A DNA stretch of 64,000 bases from assembly GCF_031202265.1 (NCBI RefSeq), contig NZ_CP100604.1:7236501-7300500 (forward strand), in the 5' to 3' direction. Shown one piece after another: positions 1,887 to 63,890 of the stretch. Every line of letters begins with the position of its first letter. Position 1 is the first letter of the stretch. This DNA comes from Bradyrhizobium sp. Ash2021. Lineage in GTDB: Bacteria > Pseudomonadota > Alphaproteobacteria > Rhizobiales > Xanthobacteraceae. The notes under the pieces are model-generated. The model ran no database searches. It had not been told where the DNA came from and worked only from the letters and a program-made list of their open reading frames with translations. The position numbers and the translations under genes were made by a program.

Positions 1887-3293
1887 CTACGCCGACCGCC
1901 GTGGTCCGATTGCCTCGAACTGCGCCTTTTGCTCGTCGCTCAGCGTGGCGTAAAAATTCTCGAGCGCGGTCCGCACCGATTTGACGGCCTGCACCATGGT
2001 ATCGAGCCGCTTGCCGATCGCGGTGAGCCGCGCCGGTGGCGTCATTGCGTCGTCCGTCCGGCAAGCCGCCTTCAGCATTTCGGCGGCCTTGGCACTGGCA
2101 TCCTGCAGCGCGGCAAGACTGGCGCGCTGGGTGTCGTTCGGGTGCAACCTGGCCTCGATCTCGCTGGCCGGCCATTCCACACCGGACGGCTGCGCGGCGC
2201 CACAGCTTGGAACCAGCGGCGCGCCGGCATGGCTGGCCGCGGCGGTCCTGCGCTGATCGTCAGCGAGCGCATTGAGCCGGGCTTTCTGCTCGTCGTTCAG
2301 CAGAGCATAGAACTTCTCCAGCGGCGGCTGCACGGCGGCGACCGCTGACATCATCGCCTCGATGCGCTGCTGCATGACCGCCAGCCGGCCCGGCGCCGTC
2401 AGTATGATCTGCGTCGGGCATGCCGCACGAATGGTCTGGGCGGCCGAGATCGATGCGTTGCCGAGTTCGTCGAGTGCCGCACCTTGCGCTTCGGTCGGCT
2501 GAATCGCCGTCTCGATCTGGACGATCGGAAGGCCGGCGATATCGCGGCTGTCGTCACCGCACATCTCCGCCAACGGAGCGACCCTGGCGTGCCGTCGCCC
2601 GGACGGGCGCGGTGCCAGATAGCCTGCCAGATCATCATAGCCGTAGGGCGCAAATATTCCGGCGTAAATGTCGGGGTAGCCGTAGTCCCAGAAGCCGAAG
2701 CCGTCTCCCCAGATCGCATAGTCATAGATGTCGAAATAGGCGAACGGCCAGAACAGCGGACCGACCCATCCAAACCCGCCGCTGCCGTGTTGCCACCACC
2801 CGCGGGCGCCGCTGCCGTGCCAGCCCGCCATGGCGAGGCCGGCGGCGACCTGCGCGCGTGCCGCGGGATTGCTGAGCAGGCGCCCGTTGCGCAATCCACC
2901 GGCGTGCGACAGCGAGTTCATCGCGTTGCGGGCGCCTCCCGATGCGACCGCGGCGTTTCGGATCTGGCTGAAATTCGCTCTGCCGTGTCCGGCAAACGAG
3001 CGATTGCCGTGAAAACCCCCGTGCGAAAACGAGTGAGATATTGCGAACCTTCCACCGCCATGGTGCCCGCCGCCAAAATGCGCGTGGCCGAAGCCGTGGC
3101 CTCCACCGCCAAAATGGCCGCCGCCGAAATGACCACCACCGAAATGACCGCCGCCGAAATGGCCGCCGCCACCACCGTGGCCACCACCGCCATGGCCGCC
3201 GCCGCCGTGACCGCCGCCGCCCCTGCCGAGAGCCGCGCCCGACAGCAGCGCCGCCACGACAAGGACCGCAATTCCGATGGCCGATTTGGACAT
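1887..3293 (-). CDS. exported Gly/His-rich protein with two Spy-like LTxxQ repeats
   Basis: Probable periplasmic protein of 468 residues. The start at 3293 (MSKSAIGIAVLVV) is set by a very strong AGGAGG seven bases upstream and gives a signal peptide ending near ALG. Residues of about 25 to 100 are an extremely Gly/His-rich tract (GGGHGGGGHGG, then HFGG repeats), a typical low-complexity metal-binding composition. The second half holds two tandem copies of an LTxxQ-type module, visible as LLNDEQKARLNAL and LSDEQKAQFEAIG, each preceded by a conserved Cys segment (AACPTQI and KAACRTDD). LTxxQ motifs are the hallmark of Spy/CpxP periplasmic chaperones, so stress or metal-related chaperone activity is possible but inferred. 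Confidence 0.75.
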   Translation of the reverse strand: MSKSAIGIAVLVVAALLSGAALGRGGGGHGGGGHGGGGHGGGGGHFGGGHFGGGHFGGGHFGGGGHGFGHAHFGGGHHGGGRFAISHSFSHGGFHGNRSFAGHGRANFSQIRNAAVASGGARNAMNSLSHAGGLRNGRLLSNPAARAQVAAGLAMAGWHGSGARGWWQHGSGGFGWVGPLFWPFAYFDIYDYAIWGDGFGFWDYGYPDIYAGIFAPYGYDDLAGYLAPRPSGRRHARVAPLAEMCGDDSRDIAGLPIVQIETAIQPTEAQGAALDELGNASISAAQTIRAACPTQIILTAPGRLAVMQQRIEAMMSAVAAVQPPLEKFYALLNDEQKARLNALADDQRRTAAASHAGAPLVPSCGAAQPSGVEWPASEIEARLHPNDTQRASLAALQDASAKAAEMLKAACRTDDAMTPPARLTAIGKRLDTMVQAVKSVRTALENFYATLSDEQKAQFEAIGPRRSA

Positions 3294-5630: not shown

Positions 5631-5914
5631 GATCCGATCCTCTGTTTTCTGCCTCAATCGACACGGCTGAGAACGCCGCGCCACGACTGCAGAAACAATC
5701 CGGCCGGAGAATGCTGGTTCCTGGCCGCTAAACCGGGAAATTTTCGGATTTTCGCGGAACAAAGTCGCGCTTGGGTCGCGAAAACCAACCTGCCGAAGCT
5801 GCGGGATAAAACCTGTCAAAACGGCCGAAGAGGCCCTATATGGCCCTTAATCCCTGCTAAGAAGGCTCCCCTTCACCGCCCCATGGTGCCATCGTGGGGA
5901 CAAGACGATTCGCA

Positions 5915-8572
5915 ATGACCGAGCCGAGCAAGTTGCCCCATCACGGCGTTCCCGAGCACCAGCCAGCCGCTGGCGGCATCGCCGCGCGTGCGCGGGCCTC
6001 GGCGGCCCCGCAATATCTCACCGGCCTCAATCCCGAGCAGCGCGACGCGGTAGAGACCCTGGACGGCCCCGTGCTGGTGCTGGCCGGCGCCGGCACCGGC
6101 AAAACGCGCGTGCTGACCACGCGGATCGCCCATATCCTGAGCCAGGGCCGGGCCCGGCCGCACGAAATCCTGTCGGTGACCTTCACCAACAAGGCGGCGC
6201 GCGAGATGAAGCTGCGGCTTGGCCAGATGCTCGGCCAGGCCGTCGAGGGCATGCCGTGGCTCGGCACCTTCCACTCGATCGGCGGCCGTATCCTGCGCAT
6301 CCACGCCGAACTGGTGCAGCTCAAATCCAACTTCACCGTGCTCGATGTCGACGATCAGGTCCGGCTCTTGAAGCAGCTGCTGCAGGCCGAGAACATCGAC
6401 GACAAGCGCTGGCCGGCGCGCATGATGGCCGGATTGATCGACGGCTGGAAGAACCGCGGGCTGACGCCGTCGCAGGTGCCGGCAGGCGAGGCCGCCGTGT
6501 TCGGCAACGGCAAGGGCGGCAAGCTCTACGCGAGCTATCAGGAACGGCTGAAAATCCTCAACGCCGCCGATTTCGGCGATCTGCTGCTGGAGAACATCCG
6601 GCTGTTCCGCGAACATCCCGATGTGCTCCGGCAATACCAGAACCGGTTCAAGTTCATCCTGGTCGACGAATATCAGGACACCAACGTCGCGCAATATCTG
6701 TGGCTCAGGCTGCTGTCGCAAGCACCGAGCAAGCCGGGCGCGCCGCTTTCTGCGGTCATTCCGGGGCAGTCGGATTCTCCGGTCATTCCGGGGCGCATCG
6801 AAGATGCGAACCCGGAATCTCTAAATAAAGAGGACTCATCTCGAGATTCCGGGTCTGGTCCTTCGGACCATCCCGGAATGACGGAAGACCCTCTCCCCGC
6901 AAGCGGGGCGAGGGAGATCGGCGCGCATCCCGGGTTGGCGCCCTCCTCGCCGCTCAAAAACATCTGCTGCGTCGGCGACGACGACCAGTCGATCTATGGC
7001 TGGCGCGGCGCCGAGGTCGACAACATCCTGCGCTTCGAGCACGATTTTCCCGGCGCCAAAGTGATCCGGCTGGAGCGCAATTACCGCTCCACCGGCCACA
7101 TCCTCGCCGCCGCCTCGCATCTGATCGCGCACAACGAAGGCCGGCTCGGCAAGACGCTGCGCACCGAGGACGTCGACGGCGAAAAGGTCACCGTCACCGG
7201 CTCCTGGGATTCGGAAGAGGAAGCCCGCGCCATCGGCGAGGAGATCGAGGAGTTGCAGCGATCAGGTGAGAACCTCAACGAGGTCGCGATCCTGGTGCGG
7301 GCCTCGTTCCAGATGCGCGAGTTCGAAGATCGTTTTGTCACGCTCGGCCTGCCCTATCGCGTGATCGGCGGTCCAAGGTTTTACGAGCGCGCCGAAATCC
7401 GCGACGCGCTGGCGTATTTGCGCGTGATCAATTCGCCGGCCGACGATCTCGCCTTCGAGCGCATCGTCAATGTGCCGAAGCGCGGGCTCGGCGACGCCAC
7501 CGTGCAGATGCTGCATGACCACGCCCGCAAGCGCCGGATTCCCTTGTTCGAGGCGGCGCGCGCCGTGGTCGAGACCGACGAACTGAAACCGAAGGCGCGC
7601 GGGAGCCTGCGCGACTTGATCCTGCATTTCGACCGCTGGCGCGCCCGGCGCGAGGTGACCTCGCATACGGAGCTGGCCGAAATCGTGCTCGACGAGAGCG
7701 GCTACACCGAGATGTGGCAGAAGGACCGTTCCGCCGACGCCGCCGGCCGGCTGGAAAACCTCAAGGAACTGGTGCGCTCGATGGAGGAGTTCGAGAACCT
7801 GCAGGGTTTCCTCGAACATATCTCGCTGGTGATGGACCGCGACGGCGGCGCCGACGACGAAGCGGTGTCGCTGATGACGCTGCATTCCGCCAAGGGCCTG
7901 GAATTCGACAATGTATTCCTGCCGGGCTGGGAGGAAGGCCTGTTTCCAAGCCAGCGCACGCTCGACGAACAGGGCCGCGCCGGCCTCGAGGAAGAACGTC
8001 GTCTGGCCCATGTCGGGCTGACGCGCGCGCGCCGCCGCGCCAAGCTCTATTTCGCCACCAACCGCCGCATTCACGGCACCTGGTCGACCACGATCCCGTC
8101 GCGCTTCCTTGATGAGCTGCCGGCGCCGAATGTCGAGATCACGGAATCCAAGGGCGGTTCGGGCTGGGGCGGCTCCGGCGGCTACGGCCCCTCGCGCTTC
8201 GACAACGTCGAGTCCTTCGGCTCCAGCTATACGACGCCGGGCTGGCAACGCGCCCAGGCCAACCGCGCCCGCAATCAGAACCGCGGCGGCTCGGACAGGG
8301 GCGGGTTTGAGGAAAGCCAGTCGTCTTTCCAGAGTTCGCGCAACGAAACGGGCAGCGGCTTCTCCCGCACCAAGCGCGGGCCGATGGTGATCGAAGGCGA
8401 ACTGGTGGCGAAATCCACCGGCACGAATTCGGAATTCTCGCTCGACGACCGCGTGTTTCACCAGAAGTTCGGCTACGGCAATGTGGTGAAAGTCGACGGC
8501 AACAAGCTCACCATCGCCTTCGAGAAGGCCGGCGAGAAGAAGGTGGTCGATAGCTTTGTGGAGCGGGTGTAA
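5915..8572 (+). CDS. uvrD: UvrD/PcrA-type superfamily 1 DNA helicase with an in-frame repeat insertion
   Basis: ATP-dependent 3'-5' DNA helicase, 885 residues from the ATG at 5915 (a GTG at 5894 is possible). Helicase motifs in order: Q-motif LNPEQRDAVE, Walker A GAGTGKT (residues 58-64), TFTNKAAREM, motif II DEYQDTN (about 251-257), motif III GDDDQSIYGWRGA (about 354), LERNYRS, LMTLHSAKGLEF and VGLTRARRR. The C-terminal tail is Gly/Ser-rich and ends in the UvrD tudor-like segment VFHQKFGYGNVVKVDG. Motifs II and III are normally about 30 residues apart; here about 104 lie between. The extra stretch (SAVIPGQ to about LAPSSP) is encoded by a palindromic repeat. The frame is intact, so the gene is probably functional. 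Role: nucleotide excision and mismatch repair, replication fork maintenance. Confidence 0.93.
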   Translation: MTEPSKLPHHGVPEHQPAAGGIAARARASAAPQYLTGLNPEQRDAVETLDGPVLVLAGAGTGKTRVLTTRIAHILSQGRARPHEILSVTFTNKAAREMKLRLGQMLGQAVEGMPWLGTFHSIGGRILRIHAELVQLKSNFTVLDVDDQVRLLKQLLQAENIDDKRWPARMMAGLIDGWKNRGLTPSQVPAGEAAVFGNGKGGKLYASYQERLKILNAADFGDLLLENIRLFREHPDVLRQYQNRFKFILVDEYQDTNVAQYLWLRLLSQAPSKPGAPLSAVIPGQSDSPVIPGRIEDANPESLNKEDSSRDSGSGPSDHPGMTEDPLPASGAREIGAHPGLAPSSPLKNICCVGDDDQSIYGWRGAEVDNILRFEHDFPGAKVIRLERNYRSTGHILAAASHLIAHNEGRLGKTLRTEDVDGEKVTVTGSWDSEEEARAIGEEIEELQRSGENLNEVAILVRASFQMREFEDRFVTLGLPYRVIGGPRFYERAEIRDALAYLRVINSPADDLAFERIVNVPKRGLGDATVQMLHDHARKRRIPLFEAARAVVETDELKPKARGSLRDLILHFDRWRARREVTSHTELAEIVLDESGYTEMWQKDRSADAAGRLENLKELVRSMEEFENLQGFLEHISLVMDRDGGADDEAVSLMTLHSAKGLEFDNVFLPGWEEGLFPSQRTLDEQGRAGLEEERRLAHVGLTRARRRAKLYFATNRRIHGTWSTTIPSRFLDELPAPNVEITESKGGSGWGGSGGYGPSRFDNVESFGSSYTTPGWQRAQANRARNQNRGGSDRGGFEESQSSFQSSRNETGSGFSRTKRGPMVIEGELVAKSTGTNSEFSLDDRVFHQKFGYGNVVKVDGNKLTIAFEKAGEKKVVDSFVERV
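6755..6883. repeat. palindromic repeat (family A) inside the helicase reading frame
   Basis: Starts GTCATTCCGGGGC, repeats GTCATTCCGGGGCGCATC at 6782, and ends CCCGGAATGACG at 6883, so the ends are inverted copies of each other. Family A copies without coding capacity occur elsewhere in this window (24229, 45137, 61918, 62942, 63849). Here it is translated as VIPG...EDANPES...DHPGMT. A separate hairpin, CTCTCCCCGC/GCGGGGCGAG, follows at 6891-6913. Together they account for the extra residues in the helicase. Confidence 0.85.
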
Positions 8573-24228: not shown

Positions 24229-24294
24229 CGTCATTCCGGGGCGGGCGAAGCGCGAACCCGGAATCCAGGGATTTCGGGACCATCCCGGAATGAC
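24229..24294. repeat. family A palindromic repeat
   Basis: CGTCATTCCGGGGCGGGCGA ... GGGACCATCCCGGAATGAC. Lies in the divergent gap between the spermidine-synthase-like gene and the desaturase-like gene, 35 bases before the latter's ATG. Confidence 0.85.
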
Positions 24295-31291: not shown

Positions 31292-31392
31292 CGTCATCCC
31301 CCGCGAAGGCGGGGGATCCAGTACGCCGCGGCTTCTCGGTTTAGCTCTGACGTCTCTGGAATACTGGATCATCCGCTTTCGCGGATGATGAC
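31292..31392. repeat. family B palindromic repeat
   Basis: CGTCATCCCCCGCGAAGGCG...GATCCAGTACGCCGCGGC...CTGGAATACTGGATCATCCG...CGCGGATGATGAC. Ends are inverted and the core pair GGATCCAGTA / TACTGGATC is shared with the copy at 50315. Confidence 0.85.
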
Positions 31393-32855: not shown

Positions 32856-32974
32856 CGTCATTGCGAGCCAACGGGTCGCGCGAATGCGCGCCCGATGACA
32901 GGCTCCGCGAAGCAATCCATCGAGCCACAAGGCAAGTATGGATTGCTTCGTCGCTGACGCTCCTCGCAATGACG
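32856..32974. repeat. family C palindromic repeat
   Basis: CGTCATTGCGAG ... GAAGCAATCCA ... TGGATTGCTTCG ... CTCGCAATGACG. Carries the module CCAACGGGTCGCGCGAATGC...GATGACAGGCTCC at 32867-32912, also seen reversed at 60584-60630 and within the family B copy at 47607. Confidence 0.85.
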
Positions 32975-45114: not shown

Positions 45115-45136
45115 CGATTCGATCCGCCAATTCTTC

Positions 45137-45253
45137 CGTCATTCCGGGATGGTCCGAAGGACCAGACCCGGAATCTCCTTATCTATACAACTTCTGGATT
45201 CTCCGATGTGCAATTGCACATCGTAGTTCGTGCTACGCGCGCCCCGGAATGAC
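45137..45253. repeat. family A palindromic repeat inside the dcw cluster
   Basis: CGTCATTCCGGGATGGTCCG ... GCGCCCCGGAATGAC, with inner GATGTGCAATTGCACATC palindrome at about 45205. Fills the murB-ddl junction. Confidence 0.85.
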
Positions 45254-47596: not shown

Positions 47597-47731
47597 GTCA
47601 TCGCCCGCCAACGGGTCGGCGCAGAGCGCCGCCCGATGACAGGCTCCAGCGGGCGATCCAGTATTCCGCGCCCCCCGTGAGTCAAATCAGCGGCGCGGCG
47701 TACTGGATGCCCCGCTTTCGCGGGGCATGAC
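47597..47731. repeat. mosaic palindromic repeat (family B containing a family C module)
   Basis: Outer part is family B: GTCATCGCCCGC ... GCGGGCGATCCAGTATTCCGCG ... TACTGGATGCCCCGCTTTCG ... CATGAC. Inside the left arm sits CCAACGGGTCGGCGC...GCCCGATGACAGGCTCC (47608-47646), the module otherwise found in family C. Lies between murG and murC. Confidence 0.8.
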
Positions 47732-50314: not shown

Positions 50315-50415
50315 CGTCATACCCGCGAAAGCGGGTATCCAGTACGCCGCGGCCGTAGTGATTGAACCGCGAGGCCTCTGGAATACTGGATCGCCCGCTT
50401 TCGCGGGCGATGACG
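50315..50415. repeat. family B palindromic repeat between murD and ftsW
   Basis: CGTCATACCCGCGAAAGCGG...ATCCAGTACGCCGCGGCC...CTGGAATACTGGATCGCCCG...CGCGGGCGATGACG. Same core as 31292-31392, with compensating changes in both outer arms that keep the stem paired. Confidence 0.85.
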
Positions 50416-60518: not shown

Positions 60519-60641
60519 CGTCATTGCGAGGAGCGAAGCGACGAAGCAATCCATTCTTTCTTCTTCCTGTGAAAGGATGGATTGCTTCGCGGAGCCTGTC
60601 ATCGGGCGCGCGTTCGCGCGACCCGTTGGCTCGCAATGACG
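60519..60641. repeat. family C palindromic repeat
   Basis: CGTCATTGCGAGGAGCGAAG ... GCAATCCAT ... ATGGATTGCTTCGCGGAGCC ... GGCTCGCAATGACG. Carries the shared module in reverse orientation at 60584-60630 compared with 32867-32912. It lies between the convergent amidase and sigma-factor genes. Confidence 0.85.
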
Positions 60642-61917: not shown

Positions 61918-61959
61918 CGTCATTCCGGGGCGCGTCGAAAACGCGAACCCGGAATGACG
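61918..61959. repeat. short family A palindromic repeat
   Basis: CGTCATTCCGGGGCGCGTCG ... AACCCGGAATGACG, a minimal 42-base version. Located between the sigma factor gene and its YCII partner. Confidence 0.85.
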
Positions 61960-62941: not shown

Positions 62942-63045
62942 CGTCATTCCGGGCTGGTGCGCGAGCACCAGACCTCAGATGCGCAATTGCGCATCGGGGA
63001 ATCTCGAGATTCCGGGTTCGATGCTTCGCATCGCCCCGGAATGAC
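62942..63045. repeat. family A palindromic repeat
   Basis: CGTCATTCCGGGCTGGTGCG ... GATGCGCAATTGCGCATC ... GATGCTTCGCATCGCCCCGG followed by AATGAC. Fills the gap between rnpB and the hydrolase stop. Confidence 0.85.
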
Positions 63046-63848: not shown

Positions 63849-63890
63849 CGTCATTCCGGGGCGCATCGAAGATGCGAACCCGGAATGACG
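63849..63890. repeat. short family A palindromic repeat
   Basis: CGTCATTCCGGGGCGCATCG ... GAACCCGGAATGACG. The last bases run directly into AAGGAG, the ribosome binding site of the following TauE-like gene. Confidence 0.85.

Follow-up and report, generated by a model that had tools for sequence, protein, structure and literature searches.

The conserved DNA-repair helicase UvrD appears to have long served small palindromic DNA as a landing pad. This reading is drawn from the occurrence of unrelated repeats at the same spot of uvrD in related bacteria: one codon position is occupied, across 24 genus codes of a single taxonomic family, by repeats of five labels (A to E), of which D shares its ends with A. 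The analysis started from a window, the whole stretch of 64,000 nucleotides considered here (contig 1, 7,236,501-7,300,500, of a 9.70-Mb genome). A first-pass annotation of the window had described a genomic palindromic repeat in frame inside a UvrD-type helicase, and this description is borne out: a left remnant, an inverted dimer and a second hairpin all lie in frame, and the loop DNA that holds them (6722-6958) is stop-free in the uvrD frame. The features are as follows.

5894..8572, + strand: uvrD, UvrD/PcrA-type SF1A DNA helicase, 892 codons counted from the first GTG
6722..6958, + strand: expanded loop of 79 codons, ...LRLLSQ to NICCVGDDDQSIY (canonical short form: 3 codons), from sequence and loop comparison
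6752..6943, + strand: codons of residues 277-340, predicted disordered (AlphaFold2, pLDDT about 30)
6755..6766, + strand: left remnant of a family-A unit, GTCATTCCGGGG, in frame, from sequence
6782..6818, + strand: hairpin 1 of the family-A (putative CGTC-1-type REP) inverted dimer, in frame; stem ATTCCGGG/CCCGGAAT, inner stem GCATC/GATGC
6819..6845, + strand: spacer of the family-A dimer, 27 nt
6846..6882, + strand: hairpin 2 of the family-A dimer, in frame
6890..6914, + strand: family-B hairpin CCTCTCCCCGCAAGCGGGGCGAGGG (CCTCTCCCC..GGGGCGAGGG), a second repeat family, in frame

The protein encoded at 5894-8572 contains UvrD N-terminal and C-terminal helicase domains and a tudor domain (residues are numbered from 5924-8569, 882 residues, as analysed). 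It resembles UvrD/PcrA SF1A helicases in domains and fold, and departs from the others in the spacing between motif II (DEYQDTN) and motif III (GDDDQSIYGWRGA), which is 96 residues rather than 20; the first-pass annotation was right about the long spacing but had put it at 104. Alignment to E. coli UvrD is interrupted at query residues 267-346. To judge by its sequence the protein is plainly a UvrD despite missing the 20-residue DExQDTN-GDDDQSIY spacing, a regularity that is our own observation and no published criterion. The partial duplicate of the palindrome's left end, also claimed at first pass, exists as the remnant at 6755-6766 but is not new here, since IIPG...VIPG can be read at that position in many relatives. 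The segment holding hairpin 2 (6843-6888) is the exact reverse complement, over 46 nt, of an intergenic segment at 45132-45177.

The loop content is predicted to add about 65 disordered residues to the protein. In the AlphaFold2 model used (mean pLDDT 77.4, pTM 0.63; an earlier, poorer model reached pTM 0.39), the insert follows helix 255-265 and precedes strand 346-351, which leads to motif III. Given this position and the topology of the RecA fold, the insert should be at the edge of the sheet that lies away from the motif-bearing strand ends. The suggestion that it lies near the ATPase site is thus correct along the sequence but would probably not hold in the fold.

The family-A repeat is abundant in this genome. 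The half-element pattern GTCATTCCGGG-N4..30-CCCGGAAT has 99 forward and 97 reverse matches genome-wide, with none for the reversed control; a few single units among these 196 are counted on both strands, and such pattern counts, being exact-match, miss diverged copies. The matches listed are mostly opposed pairs, often 6 nt apart and otherwise separated by about 20-34 nt. Whether a copy is intragenic was judged by an open frame and coding-like codon use on both sides of the element. By this test, uvrD alone is intragenic among 91 distinct places in the window's genome, a sample drawn from the 196 pattern matches and from peptide matches. The five further family-A places in the window (24230-24294, 45138-45253, 61919-61958, 62943-63045 and 63850-63889) had been called non-coding, correctly: by the codon test none of the five lies inside a gene. 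Two other candidate in-gene copies were rejected, one (L009/L010) lying upstream of the start of an acyl-CoA thioesterase gene and the other (L086) being placed on an antisense ORF in the gap separating two genes.

The survey denoted below as PMC3733652 is that of Di Nocera, De Gregorio and Rocco (2013). In tag, stem and dimer form, family A fits a CGTC-1-type REP as described in that survey (PMC3733652). Like the CGTC-tagged REPs of that text, whose stems measure 8-9 bp, it has a stem starting with AT (8 bp, ATTCCGGG/CCCGGAAT, in both units), a terminal CGTC tag, a high copy number and inverted dimers. The tag is exact at the right end (GACG, or CGTC on the other strand, at 6880-6883) and one base off at the left (GGTC); altered CGTC tags are noted by the authors, who also report CGTC-1 and CGTC-3 REPs in Bradyrhizobium and CGTC-1 loops of varying length there (PMC3733652). 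Families B and C carry no assignment to the CGTC or GTAG sets of that survey.

The expanded loop is general in the genus. A UvrD-type match was recovered in 242 of 242 genomes of the genus and, in a search of the whole family, in 197 of 198 genomes (11 of the 198 being from the same genus); loci were then read in 90 of the 242 genus genomes and in 60 of the 186 other-genus genomes with a match, a non-random selection from among the matches listed, the listing having stopped short of the weakest hits. In the 90 genus genomes, the window's own included, the motif II-III spacing ranges from 64 to 109 residues (median 83, among the matches listed), and the loops are labelled A or D in 59, B in 25, E in two and other in four. 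Among the matches listed from other genera of the family (60 UvrDs, 32 genera), 54 loops span 39-246 residues and six span 20; many of the long ones come from other repeat families, and some contain no recognisable repeat. The insert is therefore not peculiar to the window's genome, as had been supposed, and the same expansion in genus relatives rejects a recent insertion private to it. Of 160 genomes searched in the wider order, 20 had their loci read: ten have 20 residues, four have 24, and longer loops (31-86) occur in three genera, with repeat-like peptides in two of the three (f24 g108, f16 g104). A broad sample of 80 loci, 63 of them readable and 17 not by the motif search, gave 55 spacings of exactly 20, three of 22-25 and five of 60-94 among the matches listed; four of these last five belong to Bradyrhizobium (two), Rhodopseudomonas and Pseudorhodoplanes. 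The first-pass figure of roughly 30 residues in relatives consequently describes neither set: the genus relatives read share this kind of insert, and in distant bacteria a spacing of 20 residues prevails (among the matches listed).

Within UvrD, the expansion is confined to one place. When 110 UvrDs were aligned to a short-loop reference, the loop column held 6246 inserted residues in 104 sequences (maximum 226), compared with 1020 residues in 102 sequences (maximum 44) at the next internal insertion site, the C-terminal linker. The remaining internal columns held at most 33 inserted residues in total, and the ragged N-terminal ends 1305. A general tolerance of insertions along UvrD is unsupported by this per-column count; the C-terminal linker does vary, but far less. 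In 95 loops, no stop occurs in 6340 in-frame codons, against 86-193 in each of the other frames, a count that is partly built in because the loops were drawn from open frames.

The loops of L211-L213 and L218, from two other families of the order, contain different hairpin-like peptides (SSPLEGEVPAKRAEGV, DGRDKPGHDG). These peptides make it possible that the site opened independently there.

The families in the loop have turned over repeatedly. Labelling of 134 rows, by fuzzy motifs with three rows set by hand and with label B taking in a former group F, gave A in 38, B in 28, C in 12, E in seven, D in one, composites in six, 'other' in 22 and the short form in 20. On a FastTree phylogeny of these rows, built with the loop left out and containing many weak branches, 31 family changes are counted among 92 labelled rows, composite rows being free to take any of their families; 25 of the changes fall on branches with support of at least 95, and 17 on branches at 99. 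In 200 label shuffles the mean was 40.9 changes (minimum 33), and at support 95 it was 28.8 (minimum 22), so that at this threshold the observed 25 lies inside the shuffled range. Compared with the shuffles, the observed changes indicate that some inheritance remains, but little. Genus and family names of G-numbered genomes were deduced from the named loci that the tree contains. B. frederickii and B. elkanii group there among the same-genus rows, which would place the window's genome in Bradyrhizobium.

Individual neighbors illustrate the point. The sisters L158 (A) and B. elkanii (E) carry unrelated repeats between flanks whose identity is 95-97% in all windows compared. Another group, with support 99, is formed by L098 (C), L099 (B) and R. 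infernalis (E), whose flanks are alike on both sides. In several same-genus loops, family B starts directly after the VIPG remnant of A, which suggests replacement within an older insert. Some loops are composite: D is joined to B in one kind, an A-like unit stands beside two E units in another, and the window's own loop has A and B. The longest loop read, 229 residues in L141, comprises two E units, the A-like unit and further hairpins.

The families found in the loop are also repeats of the genomes at large. Strict patterns for C, E and B match in 32, 29 and 32 of 44 genomes, with no match for the reversed controls in any, and these three families are accordingly multi-copy. The case that would have told against a repeat origin, namely the same residues in unrelated genera lacking the repeat family, was not encountered in the genomes scanned, as the family in the loop is multi-copy in most; under the strict pattern for B the exceptions are G222, with no match, and G163, whose single match is the uvrD copy itself. 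Short-loop genomes vary: G281, G254 and G291 have no match to C, E or B, G263 has three to B, G256 has five to C, two to E and one to B; for G253 the count is 21 to C. The presence of repeats thus does not entail their entry into uvrD. In G267, 24 family-C matches accompany a spacing of 39 residues and a loop in which no repeat was recognised.

The probable explanation is that a UvrD loop freed in length acts as a near-neutral landing pad for REPs, with turnover of families. The loop, which follows the helix behind motif II and precedes the strand leading to motif III, would have lengthened in an ancestor of the Bradyrhizobium/Rhodopseudomonas/Pseudorhodoplanes group, and would then have been free of the strict 20-residue spacing. 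Intergenic repeats (REP dimers of the CGTC-1 and CGTC-3 types, together with two or more further hairpin families) could enter it by their usual route of genomic spreading; only stop-free, in-frame copies would survive, presumably translated in the cell, and these would decay by in-frame deletion and be replaced by others. In the window's genome, a family-A inverted dimer and a single family-B hairpin make up the loop's present content. This landing-pad explanation is favoured by the single insertion column, the generality of the loop in the genus and in its wider clade, the number of families and of family changes, the stop-free frame and the predicted disorder, as well as by ordinarily flanked sisters with different families and by the one intragenic place among 91 for family A. 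Against it, the uvrD copies are no simple draws from their own genome's pool (5/5 for E, 7/7 for A, 6/9 for C), and the possession of repeats is not sufficient, as the short loop of G253 and the repeat-free loop of G267 indicate. Under pure neutrality, further, the short form should have been regained more often than the single time observed.

It is also possible, if unlikely, that the long disordered loop is functional, in partner binding, dimer control or autoinhibition, and that selection acts on its length with repeats as raw material. In a clade of 109 rows, 108 keep at least 22 residues despite the turnover of families and one has the short form; the range of spacings in the 90 genus genomes (64-109, median 83) points the same way, as does the argument, in PMC3733652, that repair genes are struck more often than chance. 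A functional loop, however, would sit poorly with the lack of sequence conservation across families, with expanded spacings spread over 39 to 246 residues, with the predicted disorder and with the short form of most other bacteria read (among the matches listed).

The resemblance of uvrD copies to one another raises a further possibility. With the E element of R. infernalis uvrD as query, the uvrD copy is the best match in all five scanned genomes with E in uvrD, at 86-96% identity against 78-83% for the next full-length hits; shorter stretches of other E copies match at up to 100%. The uvrD copy is likewise best in seven of seven comparisons for A within the genus and in six of nine for C. 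The exact second hairpin of E, a pattern that misses uvrD copies differing by one change, occurs three times in 26 genomes, two of them in uvrD, and in the five scanned genomes with E in uvrD it is found once outside that gene; the uvrD-type second half is absent from 20 other E copies read in three genomes. This sub-type is present in the uvrD of six or seven genera. For family A, descent can account for the best matches within the genus. For E, which is scattered over the tree, descent alone is insufficient. A filter on frame may contribute, since shorter second hairpins would, judging from their letters, bring a stop into the uvrD frame. Because E-type uvrD copies are closest to each other across genera, the loop could instead be a true target site, with specialised palindromic sub-lineages spreading from uvrD to uvrD across genera and displacing one another, which we consider decidedly unlikely; if true, it would amount to homing-like behaviour of gene-less elements some 90 bp long.

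The mutual best matches of family-E uvrD copies across genera, and in part those of C, could alternatively reflect loop cassettes exchanged among species through homologous recombination in the conserved flanking sequence, many of the changes then being transfers. The E elements, 80-96% identical between rows, may be compared in this respect with their 600-nt flanks (82-90%) and with the third codon positions there (63-77%). Such transfer is nevertheless quite improbable, as the same-family share of nearest neighbours is flat towards the loop over 91 rows (0.43, 0.48, 0.41 and 0.43 at 0-45, 0-90, 45-135 and 90-180 nt, and 0.46, 0.49 and 0.45 at 180-300, 300-480 and 480-1000 nt), and the flank windows nearest the loop of B. 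elkanii are best matched by, or tied with, its A-type sister. A comparison of flank windows in these 91 rows revealed no imported recombination tracts.

Composite loops could also descend from an ancestral loop with several families in tandem, different ones being kept in each lineage, but this is highly improbable: the hairpins are near their family consensus, in contrast to the diverged flanks and spacers, and one locus would need several intact families in deep ancestors. It is hardly credible that the insert is missing from the protein, through removal or bypass, or that it reflects an assembly error. The long loop is present in all 89 other genus genomes read, on which ground an assembly error is rejected, and stops are absent from the coding frame of the loops but often occur in the other frames, a pattern for which removal or bypass would give no need.

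REPs inside UvrD genes are not in themselves new. They were reported in 2013 within the UvrD/REP helicase and other repair genes, some of which are the sole genes modified in a species (PMC3733652). There, REPs in genes of the same category are at different sites, Xanthomonas recB excepted; unlike these, as far as that text describes them, a single uvrD codon position here holds five labelled families and has been repeatedly refilled. RPE-6 corresponds to CGTC-1 and RPE-4 to CGTC-4 (PMC3733652), and Rickettsia palindromic elements are, according to a review (PMC10969869), spread over numerous unrelated genes within a single genome. The likeness to such elements drawn at first pass, of an in-gene palindrome in another bacterial group, is sound in that the insertion is in frame inside a gene. 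It differs in affecting one gene at one site across a family, with one of 91 sampled family-A elements intragenic; insertions in many unrelated genes were not seen for family A at the 91 places in the window's genome. What would be new relative to PMC3733652 is the single-site turnover in uvrD. Titles and abstracts of open-licence literature on palindromic and intragenic repeats, Bradyrhizobium, Rhodopseudomonas and Rickettsia contained no recurrent uvrD repeat site.

The family in the loop follows the species tree only weakly, and small palindromes thus seem to move in and out of a conserved housekeeping enzyme often. All at one site, the uvrD loci offer a natural set of insertions in coding DNA whose origin is known, and many of the host soil bacteria (Bradyrhizobium, Rhodopseudomonas) are cultured. 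The set would allow tests of how REPs move and of how proteins take up new disordered segments, and it bears on the question, raised in PMC3733652, of a possible preference for repair genes as targets.

The window contains other repeats. No tRNA genes were found in it by ARAGORN. Another inverted-dimer family (CGTCATTGCGAGCCAACGGGTCGCG...GCAATCCATC) is present at 32856-32921 and 60576-60641, apparently intergenic, with 66-nt arms that are 98% complementary. A hairpin repeat, CTGGATC..CCGCTTTCGCGG..GATGAC, occurs at 31301-31384, 47703-47723 and 50323-50406, none of the three copies lying in a gene by the codon test. Additionally, overlapping GCC-rich direct repeats with a spacing of about 15 nt (direct-repeat family D1) extend over 3046-3219.
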